DNA from: Spirochaetes bacterium GWE1_32_154
Lineage (GTDB): Bacteria > Spirochaetota > GWE2-31-10
Direction of reading: 5' to 3'
Assembly: GCA_001829315.1 (NCBI GenBank)
Contig: MIAY01000010.1
Span: 84,871-148,870 of the forward strand
Length of the DNA: 64,000 nucleotides
The translations under genes were made by a program, and so were the position numbers. Every line of letters starts with the position of its first letter. Position 1 is the first letter of the stretch. Positions 394-12,390 of this stretch are shown here, one piece after another. The notes under the pieces are model-generated. The model was not told where the DNA came from, ran no database searches, and saw only the letters and a program-made list of their open reading frames with translations.

Positions 394-1773
394 TTACATA
401 ACCAGTTCAAATTTCTCTTCAGGAGCATCTTTATCCTGTTTATCAAGTAAACACGTTAAAATCTTTTCTAACAATCTCATAGCACCTTTATATCCCGCCA
501 TCGGGAAATATTGGTGACCGACTCTGTCAAGTATTGGAAAACCAAATCTGATTGAAGGGATATCTTCATCTCTTGCAATATATTTGGTATAGGTATTACC
601 TATTATTAGATCAACACTCTCGTTCTTAATCCATTGATGAAGCGTAAATAAATCTGAAGGAACGGTATAATTAACTTTATAAGGAAGATTCTCAGTTAAT
701 TCTTTAATTCTTCTTTCAAATTTATTACCCGGTGTTCCTGTTACAATATGTACCGGTTTCATATCAATCGAGATAAGAAACTCAGTAAGGGCAACTAACT
801 GATCAGGGTCACCTGCTAATGCAACTTTTTTTCCGTAAAAATACTGGTGCATATCAGTTATCATATCAACAAGCTGACCTCTTTCTTCCATTAAAGATTC
901 CGGTACAGATTGCCCTGAATATTTTTTCAGCATTTCAACATATCGATCTGTTGCTGCTAATCCTATTGGAAGATCCAGTAATTCACAAGGCACTTTGTGT
1001 TTTGTATCAAGTAGTTTTGCACCAATTCCCGTTGCAAATCTGCCTAATGCAAGAGTAACTTTACTGTCACCTGATAATGCAATGTCTTCCGTTTTTGCTC
1101 CACCCTTTGGATACATTTTAAATTTTCCTGTCATAGGGCTGTTTAATACATTTGATGTATCCGGGTACATGATTACTTTTTTCCCAAATAACTCGGCAAT
1201 TCTTTTTATTTCAGCCATGTCGGATGGTTCGACAAAACCCGGTATAACATTGATCTGGTCAAGTTTTTTTGCCGTTGTTGATACAGCGAGTAAATCAACC
1301 ATTCCACGAACCATGTTTGCATAACCGGTTACATGAGAACCGACATAACTTGGTGTACTTGCATAGATAACTTTTTTTCCTGCCGGTACATACCCTTCAT
1401 CTTTTGCTTTTTGAGCCATTTGAGTCAGGTCATCACCGATTGTTTCCGATAGACAGGTTGTGTGAACTGCAATAACATCCGGGTTATACACCGTGAAGAT
1501 ATTATTGATAGCTTCAACAAGGTTTGCCTGTCCTCCAAATACTGAGGAACCTTCTGTGAATGAACTTGTCGATGCCATAGCAGGTTCTTTAAAATGTCTT
1601 GTCAGTGTACTTCTATGATATGAACAGCATCCCTGTGACCCGTGACTATGGGGTAAACAGTTATGAATACCCAAAGCAGCATACATTGCACCGATAGGCT
1701 GGCATGTTTTTGCAGGGTTTATAGTCAGTGCCTTTCTTTCAATTGTTTCTTGTGGCGTGTGTCTTAATAACAT
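394..1773 (-). CDS. nifK: NifK, nitrogenase MoFe protein beta chain
   Basis: Beta subunit of the MoFe protein, which with NifD forms the alpha2-beta2 component reducing N2. The P-cluster cysteines are visible as C24, C49 and C107, with the same spacing (25 and 58) as Cys70, Cys95 and Cys153 of Azotobacter NifK. At 459 residues it lacks the roughly 50-residue N-terminal extension of proteobacterial NifK, as is usual for the clostridial/methanogen-like groups. The ATG at 1773 has an AGGAGGAG ribosome site. It follows nifD by 12 bases in one operon and is followed by two hairpins before nifE. No nifG-type delta gene is present, so this is the molybdenum and not the vanadium or iron-only enzyme. 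Confidence 0.96.
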   Translation of the reverse strand: MLLRHTPQETIERKALTINPAKTCQPIGAMYAALGIHNCLPHSHGSQGCCSYHRSTLTRHFKEPAMASTSSFTEGSSVFGGQANLVEAINNIFTVYNPDVIAVHTTCLSETIGDDLTQMAQKAKDEGYVPAGKKVIYASTPSYVGSHVTGYANMVRGMVDLLAVSTTAKKLDQINVIPGFVEPSDMAEIKRIAELFGKKVIMYPDTSNVLNSPMTGKFKMYPKGGAKTEDIALSGDSKVTLALGRFATGIGAKLLDTKHKVPCELLDLPIGLAATDRYVEMLKKYSGQSVPESLMEERGQLVDMITDMHQYFYGKKVALAGDPDQLVALTEFLISIDMKPVHIVTGTPGNKFERRIKELTENLPYKVNYTVPSDLFTLHQWIKNESVDLIIGNTYTKYIARDEDIPSIRFGFPILDRVGHQYFPMAGYKGAMRLLEKILTCLLDKQDKDAPEEKFELVM

Positions 1774-1785
1774 GTTCTCCTCCTT

Positions 1786-3423
1786 TTAATCGCAAGCATA
1801 GGTAGCTGCAAGTTGTGTTTCTTTCTCCCACGGAGCCTTTACATACTTCCATACTTTGCTGTTTACCATTCTGTCGATTTCTTTATAGAAATTAACAGCG
1901 CCGACAAATCCGGCATAAGGACCGCTATAATCATAACTATGTAATTGTTTTACAGGAACACCTGATTTTTGAACTACATATTTTTCTTTAATACCGGCAC
2001 AGAAAATATCCGGTTTATACTTTTCAATAAGTACTTCTGCTTCATGATGATTAAGATCATCAATAATCAGTGTGTTTTCATCCATTTCAGGCATCATTCC
2101 AATATAGTCATTCATTTCCATATTCTTATTGGCTTTCAATGAGTCTAATTCTGATGCTTTCTTTCGTTCTTTGAACTTTTCAGGATCAGCACTTACTTTA
2201 AGTTCTTCAATATTTCTTGAATCCGCATCAATTTTAACGGTTGGAAGAACCTTTCTTCCTTCGTAGTCATCTCTATGTGCAAATTCATATCCTGCAGAAA
2301 TAGTTTTCATTCCCATTTCTTTAAATAGTTCCTGGTAATGATGTGCTCGTGATCCGCCGACAAATAACATTGCTGTTTTACCGGTAGTTCTTGTTGTTAC
2401 ATCTTTTTTTATTTCCTCAACAACTATCATTTCTTCTGCAATGACTTTTTCTATTTTGTCTTTAAGTTCTTTATCCCCAAAATACTCACCAATTTTTCGT
2501 AATGATTTTGCAGTATCATACGCTCCGATAAAGTTTACTTTAAACCATGGTAAACCGTATTTCTTCTCCATCATTTCAGCAAGATAGTTAATCGAACGGT
2601 GACACATAACAAGATTAAGATCCGCAGTATGAGCTCTGGTAAAATCATCATACGTTGAGTTACCGCTGAATGTTGATACAACGGTAATTCCGCATTTCTC
2701 AAATATTCTATCCAGTTCAAAAGCATCCCCGCCTATGTTATACTCACCAAGAAGGTTAATTTTATATTTTCCTTCTTTAACAGTGTCATTTAAGCCGACA
2801 ACATCAGTAAAAACTTTGTTATTTGCTACATGATGACCTGCTGATTGACTGACCCCTCTATATCCTTCACAACTGAATCCGAAAATATTTACTTCAGGAT
2901 GCAGAGATTCCATTTCACGGGCAACAGCATGTATATCATCCCCGATAAGACCGACAGGACATGTTGCAAATATACCGATTGCTTTGGGGTGAAATATTGA
3001 AATTGCTTCTTCAATCGCAGCTTTCAGTTTTTTCTCACCACCAAATATGATTTCATTCTCAGTCATATCTGTTGACATACTGTACGTCATAAAGTTCTCA
3101 TCTTTATCTGTTGCCGGTTTTGTCTGGTTTCTTCGTGTCAGCCATGCATAAAATCCACAACCGATTGGTCCGTGAGTTATCTGCAGTATGTCTCGTGTCG
3201 GTCCTAAAACAACCCCTCTACATCCTGCATACGAACAACCACGCATTGTTAAAATACCGGGAATTGTTCTTACATTTGCCATTATTTCAGGTACTTCATC
3301 AGTTGCTTTATCAACACTGTTTATAATGATTTGCTTTGCTCTTTTCTTTGCTACTTTAGCAGGATATGAGCGTAGCAGTTCATCTTTTATCTCCTCAGGA
3401 GAAATTGTTGTATTCTGATTCAT
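1786..3423 (-). CDS. nifD: NifD, nitrogenase MoFe protein alpha chain
   Basis: Alpha subunit holding the FeMo-cofactor. P-cluster cysteines C63, C89 and C155 keep the family spacing (26 and 66). Cofactor ligands are C274 (in VMCHRS) and H495 (in KQLHSYDYSGP). At 545 residues it is about 50 longer than Azotobacter NifD. The extra, charged segment lies around residues 390-450, before the conserved cofactor histidine, and matches the insertion characteristic of Clostridium pasteurianum-type NifD. Ribosome site GGGAGG precedes the ATG at 3423. It lies between nifI2 (11-base gap) and nifK (12-base gap). Its low-GC codon use matches the window, so there is no sign of recent transfer. Confidence 0.97.
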   Translation of the reverse strand: MNQNTTISPEEIKDELLRSYPAKVAKKRAKQIIINSVDKATDEVPEIMANVRTIPGILTMRGCSYAGCRGVVLGPTRDILQITHGPIGCGFYAWLTRRNQTKPATDKDENFMTYSMSTDMTENEIIFGGEKKLKAAIEEAISIFHPKAIGIFATCPVGLIGDDIHAVAREMESLHPEVNIFGFSCEGYRGVSQSAGHHVANNKVFTDVVGLNDTVKEGKYKINLLGEYNIGGDAFELDRIFEKCGITVVSTFSGNSTYDDFTRAHTADLNLVMCHRSINYLAEMMEKKYGLPWFKVNFIGAYDTAKSLRKIGEYFGDKELKDKIEKVIAEEMIVVEEIKKDVTTRTTGKTAMLFVGGSRAHHYQELFKEMGMKTISAGYEFAHRDDYEGRKVLPTVKIDADSRNIEELKVSADPEKFKERKKASELDSLKANKNMEMNDYIGMMPEMDENTLIIDDLNHHEAEVLIEKYKPDIFCAGIKEKYVVQKSGVPVKQLHSYDYSGPYAGFVGAVNFYKEIDRMVNSKVWKYVKAPWEKETQLAATYACD

Positions 3424-3434
3424 ATGTTCCTCCC

Positions 3435-3815
3435 TTATTCTTCATCGAGAATATCATTTCCATTCTCGCCGGTTCTAACTCTAATAGCATCAAAAATTGG
3501 CAAAACAAATATTTTACCGTCTCCTGATTTCCCTGTTTTATTCGTTTTAATAATAGTTGTTACTACTTTTTTAACTAATGTATCAGGCACAATTACCGTT
3601 AATATTCTTTTTGGTATGAGTCTCTGGCTTTGTCCCAGTTGAGATATTGCCTCTTCATAACCATTTTCAGCACCTTTTAAAACCTTAAAATCAACCAAAC
3701 CTGTTCCTCTTCCAAGACATTCTCTGGCGGTAATAGAGCTTATACCGGCATCAGAAAGAGCTTTTTTGGTCTGATTGATCATGTTCATTCTGATCACAGC
3801 CATTATCTCTTTCAT
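3435..3815 (-). CDS. nifI2: NifI2, PII-family nitrogenase switch protein
   Basis: PII-like regulator of 126 residues. NifI1 and NifI2 form a hetero-oligomer that binds NifDK directly and inhibits it when 2-oxoglutarate is low (nitrogen sufficiency), as shown in methanogens. The PII fold is seen in MAVIRMNMINQTKKAL, in the ECLGRGTG turn before a long T-loop, and in the GDGKIFVLPIFDAIRVRTGE C-terminal signature. It starts inside the nifI1 stop codon (ATGA overlap at 3812-3815), so the two are probably made in equal amounts by translational coupling. The longer T-loop, second position and divergence from GlnB separate it from general PII proteins. Confidence 0.92.
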   Translation of the reverse strand: MKEIMAVIRMNMINQTKKALSDAGISSITARECLGRGTGLVDFKVLKGAENGYEEAISQLGQSQRLIPKRILTVIVPDTLVKKVVTTIIKTNKTGKSGDGKIFVLPIFDAIRVRTGENGNDILDEE

Positions 3816-4168
3816 AATTTTACCTCCTCCAAAGTTCCGTCTGATTTTTCTTTTATTCCTGAACTCACCGTGTAAGACTCTTCAACAGGTGAAATAAATA
3901 TTTTACCATCTCCGAAAGAGCCTTTCTCTGATGTTTTAGCAACTTTAAGTATGGTTTTTACAACAAGATCTTTATCTTTATCTGCAACAACCATCAAAAG
4001 CATTTCCTTGGGTATCTCATCATAGACAATATCACCTATTTTAATACCTCTTTGTTTACCTCTACCTAGAACATTCATTTTTGTAACAGCAGGGAAGCCT
4101 GCTCCCATTAACGCTGCCAAAACATCATCAACTTTCTCCGGTCGTACAATAGATCTAATTAATAACAT
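3812..4168 (-). CDS. nifI1: NifI1, PII-family nitrogenase switch protein
   Basis: 118-residue PII-family protein placed between nifH and nifD, the diagnostic position of nifI1 in archaeal and anaerobic bacterial nif operons. Visible signatures are MLLIRSIVRPEKVDDVL (first beta-alpha unit), NVLGRGKQRG (loop entry) and GSFGDGKIFISPVEESYTVSSG (C-terminal signature). It partners NifI2 in 2-oxoglutarate- and ATP-responsive inhibition of the MoFe protein. The 25-base gap to nifH and 4-base overlap with nifI2 place it firmly in the operon. There is no glnK/amtB context that would suggest a general PII role. Confidence 0.93.
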   Translation of the reverse strand: MLLIRSIVRPEKVDDVLAALMGAGFPAVTKMNVLGRGKQRGIKIGDIVYDEIPKEMLLMVVADKDKDLVVKTILKVAKTSEKGSFGDGKIFISPVEESYTVSSGIKEKSDGTLEEVKL

Positions 4169-4193
4169 AGTGTATCCTCCTAATTTTTTTGAA

Positions 4194-5030
<837 letters not shown>

Positions 5031-5350: not shown

Positions 5351-7072
5351 ATGAAAAATTTAATAATTATTTTTTTATTTTCAACGATTGTATGTAATGC
5401 AGAAATTTTTTTATTAAAAGATGGTTTAATAAAAAAGGGTAAAATAATAAAAACATCAGAAGATATTATCGTAATTCTCAATGCGTCAGAAGAGTTCGTT
5501 ATTGAAACCGAAAATATTGATTCAATTTACTTTAATGATTCGGTATATGAATCAATGGTACATGAAAAAGAAAAGAATCTACAATTGTCCGAAGAAGAAT
5601 TAGCAAAAACAATGAAAGAAAATGAGATAAAAAAAGCTCTTTATTTAAAAAATAATTATTCAGAAATAAAAGTAGAGGATATTTTAAAGTCGATTATTGA
5701 AACGGAAAAAATAGTACTTGAAATGGAATATAGTTTTGATACTGCAAAAAATAAAATAGTAAATCTGATAAAAAATGACTATAAATCTAATTATGCTGCA
5801 ATAAATGAACTTGTAAAAGATAAATTTGAACTATCCGAAGAGTTTGAAAATCGGAAAAAAAGTGATTTTGAGAAAATACAGGAAAATGAAATTACTGAAA
5901 TAAATCAAGCTGTAAATACATATGATACGGAAAAAGAAAAAGCGACAGAGGATATAAAAAATAAATTAGAAAGATTATCAGAAATGACCGTAACGGTAAA
6001 AGATAATATAAAAGTTGTATTTGGGCAATATAACGAAAAAGAACAGTTTTTTCCTGTAAATATACTCTATGATTCATCGTTTGCAAAAATAAATGAAAAT
6101 GCTTTTATTGAAATAATAAGCCAGACAAGTGCAGAGCGTAAAGAAAAGGGTTTAAAAATTGAGAAAATGATTCAATCAAATGGTTATTTAGCAGAAATTG
6201 ATTTCATTTTTTCGTGTGGTGCTGCAGACAGGAAATGGAATATCATTTTAAAAACAATAAGAATCATTGATTTGTCAGACAATATGATTGTTATGGATAA
6301 AAAATCAGAAAGATACAAAAAAATGGAGAACTTACAGTCATTTGTTTTTGTAAAAGGCGGTACATTCAAGAATACAAAATCAAATTATTATAACACCCAG
6401 ACTACGCTATCAGACTTTAACATAGGTATATATGAAGTAACGCAAAAAGAATGGTTTGATATAATGGGGAATAATCCGAGTAATTTCAAAGGAGATACCT
6501 TACCGGTTGAAACAGTCTCATGGTACGATTGTGTTGAATACTGCAATCAAAGAAGTAAAAAAGAAGGTTTAAAAAACTATTACACGATTGATAAAAATAA
6601 AAAAGACCCTAATAATAAAAATGAAGATGATGATTTAAAATGGACAATAACGATCAATGCAGGCAGTAACGGTTACAGGTTGCCGACCGAGGCAGAGTGG
6701 GAATATGCAGCAGGTGGCGGACAAAAGAGTTTGAGTTACGAATTGAGCGGAAGTGATATTGCAACTGAAGTTGCTGTATTTTATGAAAACAGCAATGATT
6801 CAACAAAACCTGTCGGCAGTAAAAAACCGAATGAACTCGGCTTGTATGACATGTCAGGTAATGTGTATGAATGGTGCTGGGATTGGTATGGTGAAGAAAT
6901 CAGCAACGGTCGTGATCCGCTCGGTCCGATTCCGATGGCCGGTTTGTACCGGCTTCTTCGCGGTGGTAGCTGGCTCGACAGCAGCGGCATCGTGCAGGTC
7001 GGCGACCGGGGCCGCTACACCCCGGGCCGTGCGGGCCTCATCAACGGTTTCCGCGTTGCAAGGTCAAATTAG
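5351..7072 (+). CDS. Exported FGE-sulfatase (C-type-lectin fold) protein with DGR-like variable tail
   Basis: 573 residues. Residues 1-17 form a signal peptide (hydrophobic LIIIFLFSTIV, likely cut after CNA; a spirochaete-type lipobox ending at C15 is possible). Residues about 75-215 are charged and helical, coiled-coil-like. From about 328 the protein is a formylglycine-generating-enzyme/SUMF domain (FVKGGTF, EVTQKEW, PVETVSWYDCVEYCN, YRLPTEAEWEYAA, GLYDMSGNVYEWCWDW, LRGGSW, GFRVAR). Such domains are the C-type-lectin scaffold of retroelement-diversified proteins such as Treponema TvpA. The last roughly 110 coding bases are sharply GC-rich and nearly every codon between GGSW and GFR is NNC, the signature of an adenine-mutagenised repeat. 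Probably surface-exposed binding protein rather than an enzyme. Confidence 0.85.
   Translation: MKNLIIIFLFSTIVCNAEIFLLKDGLIKKGKIIKTSEDIIVILNASEEFVIETENIDSIYFNDSVYESMVHEKEKNLQLSEEELAKTMKENEIKKALYLKNNYSEIKVEDILKSIIETEKIVLEMEYSFDTAKNKIVNLIKNDYKSNYAAINELVKDKFELSEEFENRKKSDFEKIQENEITEINQAVNTYDTEKEKATEDIKNKLERLSEMTVTVKDNIKVVFGQYNEKEQFFPVNILYDSSFAKINENAFIEIISQTSAERKEKGLKIEKMIQSNGYLAEIDFIFSCGAADRKWNIILKTIRIIDLSDNMIVMDKKSERYKKMENLQSFVFVKGGTFKNTKSNYYNTQTTLSDFNIGIYEVTQKEWFDIMGNNPSNFKGDTLPVETVSWYDCVEYCNQRSKKEGLKNYYTIDKNKKDPNNKNEDDDLKWTITINAGSNGYRLPTEAEWEYAAGGGQKSLSYELSGSDIATEVAVFYENSNDSTKPVGSKKPNELGLYDMSGNVYEWCWDWYGEEISNGRDPLGPIPMAGLYRLLRGGSWLDSSGIVQVGDRGRYTPGRAGLINGFRVARSN
6955..7062 (+). other. Putative DGR variable region (VR)
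   Basis: This segment encodes LLRGGSW...GFRV at the end of the preceding protein. Codons after TGG run CTC GAC AGC AGC GGC ATC, then after CAG GTC: GGC GAC CGG GGC CGC TAC ACC, then GGC CTC ATC AAC before GGT TTC CGC. That pattern is expected if template AAC codons had been mutated at A only. It is much richer in GC than anything around it. No reverse transcriptase or template repeat is visible in the window, so the retroelement would act in trans. Confidence 0.72.
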
Positions 7073-7183
7073 TTGAGCAGTCCGCCAGAGATATTGGGGT
7101 TAGCAAGTCAAACCTGGTTACCGAAATATGGAATTGGAGCGGTAGTGGAACGGACGCGTTATTTGAAAATAAGGGAGGGGTAA
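7072..7183 (+). pseudogene. Remnant of an IS3-type transposase OrfA
   Basis: Reading from 7072 without a start codon gives VEQSARDIGVSKSNLV, then W and GSGTDALFENKGG. This resembles the helix-turn-helix and following linker of IS3-family OrfA proteins (typically ARELGIS...W...GTDAFPGKG). It begins at the stop codon of the variable-protein gene and runs into the next gene's start, with no flanking inverted repeats or OrfB. I read it as a decayed fragment; the match is by eye and short. Confidence 0.45.
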
Positions 7184-8746
7184 ATGAAAAAATTACCGAT
7201 TGGTATAAATACATTAAGTACCATACTTGAAAATGATATGATTTATATTGATAAAACAGAATTGATTAGCACATTGATTTCCACTCCGGGCAGGTATTTT
7301 TTGTCCCGCCCCCGTCGATTTGGTAAAAGTTTGTTTGTCGATACATTAAAAGAGATATTTGAAGGGAATAAAGAACTTTTCAAAGGTTTGTTTATCTACG
7401 ATAAATGGAATTGGGATAAAAAGTATCCGGTGATAAAGGTTGATTTTGCCGGTGGGGTGATACAAAGTAGAGTTGAACTTGATGTCAAATTATTATACAT
7501 AATAAAAAGTAATGCGATTCGCCTCGGTCTTACAATTGATTTAAGTAGTGATATATCCGGTATTTTTTCTGATTTGATAAAAGCAGCATTATTAAAATAC
7601 AAATCAAAAGTGGTTGTACTCATCGATGAATACGACAAACCGCTTCTTGACAATATCGAAAAACCTGAAATGATAGCCGAGATCCGTGATGGTTTGAAAA
7701 ACTTTTATTCGGTACTCAAAGAGCAGGATGCTAATCTTCAGTTTGTCTTTTTGACCGGCGTCAGTAAGTTCAGCAAAGTGAATATTTTCAGCGGTATCAA
7801 TAATTTGAAAGATATAACTTTAAGTAAAGAATATGCAACTATTTGCGGTTATACACAAAATGATTTACGAACATCATTTGTGCAGCATCTTGCCGGTGTT
7901 GATTGGGATGAATTAAAAAAATGGTATAACGGGTATAATTTTCTCGGTGAAAGTGTTTATAATCCTTTTGACATACTGCTTTTTATCAGCGAAGATAAAT
8001 CATACAGAAACTACTGGTTTGAAACAGGGACACCGACATTCCTCATTAAACTTTTTCAGAAAAACCAGTATTTTTTACCTGATCTTGATAATATCGTTGT
8101 CGGAGAGGAACTTTTGTCATCATTTGAAATCGACAGAATCGAACCGGTGACGCTTTTGTTTCAAACCGGTTATCTGACGATCAAAGAAACATTTATAGAA
8201 ATGGGGGAAATCCTCTATAAATTGACATACCCGAATATTGAAGTAAAGCGGTCATTAAATAAATATTTTATTCATGGTTATGCACTTTTAACTCAGGAAA
8301 AACTCCAGTATGAACGAAGTACCTACGAAGCCCTGATGAAAGCTGATTTGCCGGCACTCGAAAAAACTATCAAACGGTTATTCGCTTCGATACCGTACAG
8401 AAATTTCACAAATAACAAACTCCTTGAGTCAGAAGGGTATTATGCCTCTGTTCTCTACGCGTTTTTTGCAGCGATAAACTGTGAGATTATCCCGGAGGAT
8501 ATAACAAACCACGGTCAGGCGGATATGACGGTGACTCTCGGTGAAAATATATATGTGATGGAAATAAAACTTGTTAAAACAGGCATCACATGTAATCCGG
8601 AAGTAAACGAAGCACTTGCGCAAATACAGGAACGGAAGTATTCTGAGAAATATATCGGGATAACCGGGAAATCGGTGTTTGAAGTCGGGATTGTATTCGG
8701 CGAGGAAGGACGGAATCTGCTGCAGTTCGGGTTTGTAAGATGTTAA
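7184..8746 (+). CDS. AAA-ATPase-like / PD-(D/E)XK nuclease-fold protein
   Basis: 520 residues of the family combining an AAA-ATPase-like domain with a C-terminal PD-(D/E)XK nuclease-like domain, abundant as paralogues in Treponema, Bacteroidetes and clostridia. N-terminal signature LPIGINTLSTILENDMIYIDKTELI; P-loop region SRPRRFGKSLF at 41-51; Walker B VVVLIDEYD at 143-151. The nuclease-like end shows D447 (GQADMTV) and E460 with K462 (VMEIKLVK), a plausible metal site. ATG at 7184 follows GGGAGGGG. GC content is higher than in neighbours, consistent with a laterally spread family, and it lies beside a transposase remnant. Cellular role is unknown; a mobile or defence role is possible. Confidence 0.85.
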   Translation: MKKLPIGINTLSTILENDMIYIDKTELISTLISTPGRYFLSRPRRFGKSLFVDTLKEIFEGNKELFKGLFIYDKWNWDKKYPVIKVDFAGGVIQSRVELDVKLLYIIKSNAIRLGLTIDLSSDISGIFSDLIKAALLKYKSKVVVLIDEYDKPLLDNIEKPEMIAEIRDGLKNFYSVLKEQDANLQFVFLTGVSKFSKVNIFSGINNLKDITLSKEYATICGYTQNDLRTSFVQHLAGVDWDELKKWYNGYNFLGESVYNPFDILLFISEDKSYRNYWFETGTPTFLIKLFQKNQYFLPDLDNIVVGEELLSSFEIDRIEPVTLLFQTGYLTIKETFIEMGEILYKLTYPNIEVKRSLNKYFIHGYALLTQEKLQYERSTYEALMKADLPALEKTIKRLFASIPYRNFTNNKLLESEGYYASVLYAFFAAINCEIIPEDITNHGQADMTVTLGENIYVMEIKLVKTGITCNPEVNEALAQIQERKYSEKYIGITGKSVFEVGIVFGEEGRNLLQFGFVRC

Positions 8747-11566: not shown

Positions 11567-12390
11567 CTGTTTGTTTCCTTTGGTTTTCCCCAAAATGACC
11601 AGTAGAGGACAATAAGAAATATGAGTGAAAAAATCATCGCTATTGTGTTTGCCGGTGTAATTGAAACGGTTAAGGTTACGGTATAATCTAATTTTTCATT
11701 TGATGTTGTGAATGTATAAGGACTTGTTGCATCATAGTGATATTGTATTGTTCCGTCATCTAAAATTTTTTCAGGATATATAATAATCGTATCAGTGTCG
11801 ATTGTTGTTTGTAGATATCCATTATCTCCTGAGAGATATTCTTTACCATTTATTATGTATGTTATTGTTTGTATTGTTGCAGACCATTCTTTAAAATAGA
11901 GCTTGATTTTTCCCAATCGTACAGGTTTATTTATTGCAATTGTTCTTTCAATGGTATCCGGTAGCGTTAGTATTTGAACTGAATATTCATGTGATGCCTT
12001 TTTTCTGCGGGTTATCGTTTTTATTGCGAAATCTTTTAGTTTAATCTGAATAGTATCGGATACTATTGTGTTTTTGTCTTTTGAAATTATTATATCGTAG
12101 TTTTTAGCTGATAGCAACGCAAATAGAGCTGACCAGATCATCATGAGGAATGAGAGGTGAATTATATAATAACGGATTATCTGTACAGGTTTTTCTGCAA
12201 AGAATGGATATATAAGTATAGTGAAGGCAATAACAAACCATAAAGCAGCGTGTTCGATTGAATAAATCATTCTCAGTGTATCTGATTTATTTCCCGCTGA
12301 TATGAATGTTATTGCTCCATAATATACGCATAATGCGATTACTGAAAAAATTGACATCCCGAATATTACTTTTCCGGTCGTTAATTTCAT
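11563..12390 (-). CDS. Ccs1/ResB-like cytochrome c assembly protein (divergent)
   Basis: 275 residues with three N-terminal membrane segments (about 7-30, 45-62, 73-92), a periplasmic beta-rich domain and a C-terminal membrane segment (about 248-268). The phrase INKPVRLGKIKLYFKEWS aligns with the ResB pattern in which a bound ligand ('N-P...G...YQ..W') precedes the heme-chaperone domain. Usual Ccs1 is 400-450 residues, so this is a compact version. It overlaps leuS by 4 bases (ATGA) and ccsA by 4, so the three are translationally coupled. Assignment rests on topology, this motif and the ccsA partner; sequence similarity is weak. Confidence 0.72.
   Translation of the reverse strand: MKLTTGKVIFGMSIFSVIALCVYYGAITFISAGNKSDTLRMIYSIEHAALWFVIAFTILIYPFFAEKPVQIIRYYIIHLSFLMMIWSALFALLSAKNYDIIISKDKNTIVSDTIQIKLKDFAIKTITRRKKASHEYSVQILTLPDTIERTIAINKPVRLGKIKLYFKEWSATIQTITYIINGKEYLSGDNGYLQTTIDTDTIIIYPEKILDDGTIQYHYDATSPYTFTTSNEKLDYTVTLTVSITPANTIAMIFSLIFLIVLYWSFWGKPKETNR

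Follow-up and report, generated by a model that had tools for sequence, protein, structure and literature searches.

A probable orphaned target gene of a diversity-generating retroelement in a spirochaete genome

Introduction

In the 64-kb stretch of spirochaete DNA analysed here (the window), an AT-rich gene on the plus strand (5351-7072) turns GC-rich over its last codons. Was this end written by a diversity-generating retroelement (DGR) and, if so, is the writer still at work? The original prediction described a DGR-like variable region (VR) in a protein of the same fold as the Treponema targets and supposed that a reverse transcriptase (RT) elsewhere in the genome writes the gene. In the DGR of Bordetella phage BPP-1 (Mtd, Brt, Avd), the target has a C-type-lectin (CLec) fold and carries the VR at its C-terminus. 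The window target likewise appears to combine a CLec fold with a C-terminal VR, whereas the BPP-1 system is phage-borne and complete, and its target is a tail protein. In Treponema, remote targets of a single RT are usual (PMC4891356). In eight of 17 T. denticola strains, including AL-2, H-22, and ATCC 33520, two to six targets are found without RT or template repeat (TR) and have been read as leftovers (PMC4891356).

Results

An FGE-sulfatase gene with an NNC-rich end

The gene encodes a target-like protein of 573 aa whose last residues before the stop codon are LRGGSWLDSSGIVQVGDRGRYTPGRAGLINGFRVARSN. Its C-terminal part (residues 329-571) matches the FGE-sulfatase family of Pfam (PF03781, E=6e-45), a domain of C-type-lectin fold, in agreement with the formylglycine-enzyme fold named in the original prediction. 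The best solved-structure match obtained with phmmer is TvpA (PDB 2Y3C, E=8.7e-38), itself a DGR target of T. denticola. Within the FGE/CLec-fold domain compared with TvpA (6335-7069, plus strand), the C-terminus RGGSW...GFRVA aligns without gaps to the TvpA variable region, with RGGSWLDSSGIVQVGDRGRYTPGRAGLINGFRVA in the window protein facing RGGSWAGSADYCAVGERVNISPGVRCSDLGFRLA in TvpA. The hydrophobic N-terminus, MKNLIIIFLFSTIVCNAE, read by eye and not by a predictor, is signal-like and suggests that the protein is exported. Judging from its fold and family, the product would carry a putative ligand-binding face and may act as a displayed binding protein.

No inverted repeats were found 3' of the gene. 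The short frame that follows it (7072-7224) was considered as transposase-derived and set aside, as it has no Pfam match. The adjoining minus-strand cluster (394-5018) reads, by sequence, as nifH, two PII-like nifI genes, nifD, and nifK. Another neighbor is an AAA-ATPase_like/PDDEXK_9 gene (7184-8746; PF09820/PF08011). Genes of this type adjoin FGE genes at three places, the one in the window and two assigned by sequence (L209:6717-8279 and L008:4224-5786), and two of the three places lie beside VR-like targets; this adjacency may be due to chance if the family is abundant in the genome.

The DGR-type variable region, RGGSW...GFRVAR, spans positions 6959-7063 of the plus strand, the 105 bases that were aligned to the templates of other DGRs. 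Its core, between GGSW and GFR (6974-7042, plus strand), consists of 23 codons, 17 of which are NNC. A likely 3' anchor, the counterpart of an IMH, is GGTTTCCGCGTTGCAAG at 7046-7062 on the same strand, the segment used in the anchor search of the genome. For most of its length the gene has a GC content of about 0.15-0.35; the value climbs to 0.71 at 6950-7049 and is 71-73% in the last ~30 codons. At third codon positions, the core has 17 C, 5 G, 1 T, and no A (n=23), whereas the remainder of the gene has 217 A, 187 T, 79 G, and 58 C. The NNC fraction is 0.72 in the VR and 0.10 upstream.

When a 23-codon window was slid along every ORF of 150 aa or more within the 64-kb stretch, the maximum was 17/23 NNC codons, and the 15 top-scoring positions are all located at 6952-6997. 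More than 99% of these 23-codon windows contain eight NNC codons or fewer. Given the NNC rate of 0.12 across the window, the binomial probability of 17 or more NNC codons out of 23 is 1.3e-11. The GC-rich gene end and the excess of NNC codons between GGSW and GFR, both part of the original prediction, are thus borne out, and its limits of 6955-7062 are a fair outer bound for a GGSW-GFR segment that occupies 6974-7042. The variable region may in fact begin some 25 bases further upstream. The VR is clean and NNC-rich, with an intact frame and little decay.

Adenine-biased differences from foreign templates

A search with Brt of BPP-1 located the DGR RTs of two relatives, one from the same family (G003) and one from the same order (G008). 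In both genomes, template adenines explain the differences seen in the nearby VR, with no non-A mismatch over the best 80 bases, and several further VR-like FGE genes are remote from the RT. The layout is target, HRDC gene, template, and RT in G003, and target, HRDC gene, bAvd-like protein, RT, and template in G008. In G005, which belongs to the genus of G008, the best RT match scores 108 bits, in the non-DGR range, and VR-like FGE ends are present; the NNC fractions at L149, L159, and L163 are 0.52, 0.48, and 0.44, compared to 0.17-0.22 upstream. Matches to DGR RTs in two spirochaetes, L179 (G152) and L181 (G345), each contain one TGA and are possibly inactivated.

From 15 template repeats belonging to separate DGR loci elsewhere, we derived 13 consensus AAY columns. 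At these columns the window VR shows 12 NNC codons and 13 NNY codons, with no Asn left. The paralogous targets described below have 11, 9, and 12 NNC codons at the same columns; in two ordinary FGE paralogues, L018 and L019, the count is 0 and 1. Within the core (6974-7042), 15 codons stand opposite AAC/AAT codons of the G008 template, and all 15 are changed.

The nearest template is that of the G008 DGR (L053; same order, other family), a locus in which RT, bAvd-like protein, HRDC protein, and template are present; it reads RGGSYNNNANNLQVGNRNNNNPNNENNNIGFR where the window has RGGSWLDSSGIVQVGDRGRYTPGRAGLINGFR. Over the 105 aligned positions (40 A and 65 non-A), the window VR is changed at 29/40 A and is unlike the template at 16/65 non-A positions (Fisher P=1.6e-6). 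The bias is similar for the paralogue L012 (27/40 A and 12/65 non-A, P=5.5e-7) and weaker for L013 and L015 (P about 0.02), while the ordinary paralogues display no A bias (P=0.14 and 0.51). For comparison, the RT-linked VR of G008 itself differs from its template at 21/40 A and 1/65 non-A positions. The A bias of the window VR is therefore strong with respect to the G008 template, yet not confined to A, and the cognate template is absent from the assembly. Since the templates used are foreign, the comparison reveals the signature of DGR writing, not the writing event.

Three further VR-like genes in the genome

The genome containing the window (G000) is a 4.03-Mb draft in 43 contigs, 97.58% complete. 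It encodes 11 FGE domains, four of which are VR-like. Besides the window gene, these are L012 on contig C36 (NNC 0.64 in the VR and 0.18 upstream), L013 on C30 (0.52 and 0.18), and L015 on C43 (0.69 and 0.16); ordinary FGE paralogues sharing the RGGS...GFR end have NNC fractions of 0.04 and 0.12. The long frames are intact in all four VR-like genes. Their VRs have unlike 3' anchors and differ from each other at third codon positions. Non-A positions also vary, both among the four VRs and relative to all known templates, so that no single template explains them; either several templates were used in the past, or the sequences diverged after the loss of the system.

The sister target L013 contains a separate stretch with 15/23 NNC codons inside a List-Bact repeat. 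The gene ending in an Lcl_C domain beside the C43 target was considered as a second target type, but with an NNC fraction of 0.14 it is not VR-like now. The C36 target is followed, at a distance of about 200 bases, by a DDE_Tnp_1_3 transposase gene (L012:2478-3413). Contig C33 carries a 1232-aa lipoprotein-like gene (L008:227-3925) in which List-Bact-like repeats are combined with two FGE domains, neither of which is VR-like.

Search for the reverse transcriptase and the template

The original prediction was right that the window holds neither RT nor template, and it holds no other FGE gene either. In the G000 assembly, Pfam RVT_1 identifies two RTs, a group II intron RT (TIGR04416, 371 bits) and a UG17 RT (468 bits); in the latter, QG..S[PN] replaces the DGR motif. 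Membership of the DGR clade was judged by the motif [IVL]GxxxSQ; the form [IK]GxxxSQ, present in seven of seven aligned DGR RTs, occurs in neither of the two. A profile of these seven DGR RTs, run on G000 at E<=10, returned only the UG17 RT (99 bits) and the group II RT (70 bits), while the same profile exceeds 170 bits in 27 of 393 spirochaete genomes. The group II RT gene (L002:1129-2364, C42) is split into a 298-aa frame and a downstream 81-aa frame, and the intron is probably decaying. The UG17 RT (L003:976-2325, C28) is a candidate defence RT, and its neighbor is a 200-aa membrane-like protein.

BLASTN of the window VR against its own genome gave only the self-match, because the VRs have too little exact sequence in common; degenerate patterns admitting the base or A at each position were used instead. 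Allowing up to three mismatches, the patterns built from three of the four VRs (those of the window gene, L012, and L015) matched only the VRs themselves. No second copy of the anchor GGTTTCCGCGTTGCAAG that could mark a template end was found in the genome with up to three mismatches; besides its own position, it matches only where two other FGE genes end. A match of the anchor GGTTTCCG near a contig end (C33:234) was discarded as a template since it is the end of the gene with two FGE domains, with ordinary codons. A generic template pattern had four matches in G000 and ten in the reversed control; its match near another contig end (C6:283) sits in unrelated AT-rich sequence and was likewise discarded. 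Viral contigs contained no matching template, and phage and plasmid records contained no similar VR.

The supposition that an RT elsewhere writes this gene is thus unsupported, with only a group II RT and a UG17 RT at hand, and the genome search by which it was to be checked is negative for both DGR RT and template in this assembly. As the assembly is a draft, their absence is not proof. The negative result speaks against an active DGR in the assembly, not against a DGR origin of the gene end.

A truncated accessory gene beside a sister target

On contig C30, a frame of 160 aa (L207:10172-10654) begins 7 bases after the stop codon of the sister target. Among all loci compared, its residues ~52-159 match only HRDC-type accessory proteins of RT-bearing DGR loci, with E down to 3e-20 for the best match; the values are 38% over 119 aa with the T. 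denticola accessory protein and 35% over 106 aa with that of G003. The frame includes HRDC positions 2-30 of 68 and the homology stops at the frame end, with a dispersed short repeat starting within bases of the stop codon. The gene that follows is unrelated, and the spacer between the target and the accessory gene contains no visible template. A recQ gene lies 1.3 kb downstream, but an origin of the fragment as a piece of it was rejected, because the match sets in some 70 residues ahead of the HRDC domain and is restricted to DGR loci. In the DGR of T. denticola ATCC 35405 type, the order is target, template, accessory gene, and RT. Set against this order, the C30 fragment without RT looks like a DGR cassette that has lost its 3' part.

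The repeat, with core CTCCGCGAACTCATAACCTCCGCGTGAAACACTCC, is intergenic and dispersed, with copies at L207:10652-10736, 11750-11796, and 7941-7980, at L209:8325-8395, and at L208:5640-5661.

Discussion

A DGR origin of the window gene end is well supported by these comparisons. The predicted variable region of TvpA type agrees with the codon pattern and with the alignment to 15 templates, and it gains further support from the A-biased differences from the nearest template, the three similar paralogues, and the accessory-gene remnant. We consider it probable that the segment is the VR of an orphaned DGR target, that is, that a DGR wrote these genes and that its core was then lost. As RT and template are missing and one broken remnant is found elsewhere, we regard a frozen leftover as the likeliest status of the window gene. 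This reading is based on what was observed: the codon pattern corresponds to templates, paralogues resemble the window gene, an accessory gene is truncated, and the assembly lacks a DGR RT and matching templates.

We infer that retrohoming took place in the past and that diversification has now ceased, with events in the following order. A DGR of TvpA/T. denticola type would formerly have acted in this lineage, its RT copying a template repeat with many AAC codons and misreading template adenines. The cDNA would have replaced the end of the window gene, leaving the putative ligand-binding face with NNC codons, and the same writing would have taken place in at least three other genes. Template and RT would have been lost afterwards, so that the C30 cassette would now consist of a target and an accessory gene cut inside its HRDC domain at the dispersed repeat, and the window gene would remain as an intact, frozen variant. 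It is possible, although rather unlikely, that selection has preserved at least four receptor-like proteins, each fixed by the DGR, from decay and maintains them as a frozen innate repertoire, a domestication after the loss of the mutator.

The little decay of the window VR could point to a recent or still active writer and counts against the reading as an orphan. An intact RT and template might reside in an assembly gap, an unbinned replicon, or a phage and still rewrite the gene in trans. The remote targets usual in Treponema (PMC4891356) and in the RT-bearing relatives would fit such an arrangement, as would the clean, NNC-rich VR, the intact frames, and an assembly that is 97.58% complete. 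Nonetheless, we judge it unlikely: the assembly is without DGR RT, template, or template 3' anchor, the cassette remnant is truncated, viral contigs are without a matching template and phage and plasmid records without a similar VR, and one active template could not easily serve all four VRs, given their different 3' anchors.

The lineage may instead never have written the VR and have received the gene by horizontal transfer with its end already written, a scenario to which we give very little credence. Four separate targets and a truncated accessory gene in one genome argue for a resident system, and the codon use of the gene body is AT-rich like the rest of the window, even though the best template match comes from another family of the order, the sequence flanking the window gene continues no cassette, and, for one remote target, acquisition of the target gene alone has been mentioned as another possibility (PMC4891356). 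An origin unrelated to any DGR is already disfavoured and appears extremely improbable; the GC-rich C-terminus would then have come from biased codon use, from a GC-rich donor through recombination, or from ordinary diversifying selection acting on a lectin-like loop. NNC-rich stretches do arise in other ways, as in the List-Bact repeat of L013. However, the NNC codons of the window VR fall on template AAY columns where ordinary paralogues have almost none, the bias is specific to A (P=1.6e-6), and a DGR accessory remnant lies beside a sister target.

The orphaned target that we favor has close counterparts in the T. denticola strains without RT and TR. They have in common with this genome several targets of FGE-sulfatase/CLec fold, the lack of both RT and TR, and adenine-biased differences from foreign templates, and their targets have been interpreted as what remains after loss of the core (PMC4891356). 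Unlike those orphans, the genes described here belong to another family of Spirochaetota, and the truncated HRDC accessory gene shows part of the loss. The ATCC 35405-type DGR shares the TvpA fold and VR position, an HRDC accessory protein homologous to the C30 remnant, and the template architecture NNN-A-NN...R-NNN; it is complete, with seven targets read as sharing one template, whereas the assembly examined here is without RT or TR.

Orphaned targets after DGR loss are already known from T. denticola (PMC4891356). The present case extends this picture of gain and loss to another spirochaete family, with the break in the cassette partly visible, and the scar of a DGR is recognisable from a single target gene, without RT or template. 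It provides a natural case for asking whether selection keeps targets after the mutator has been lost.
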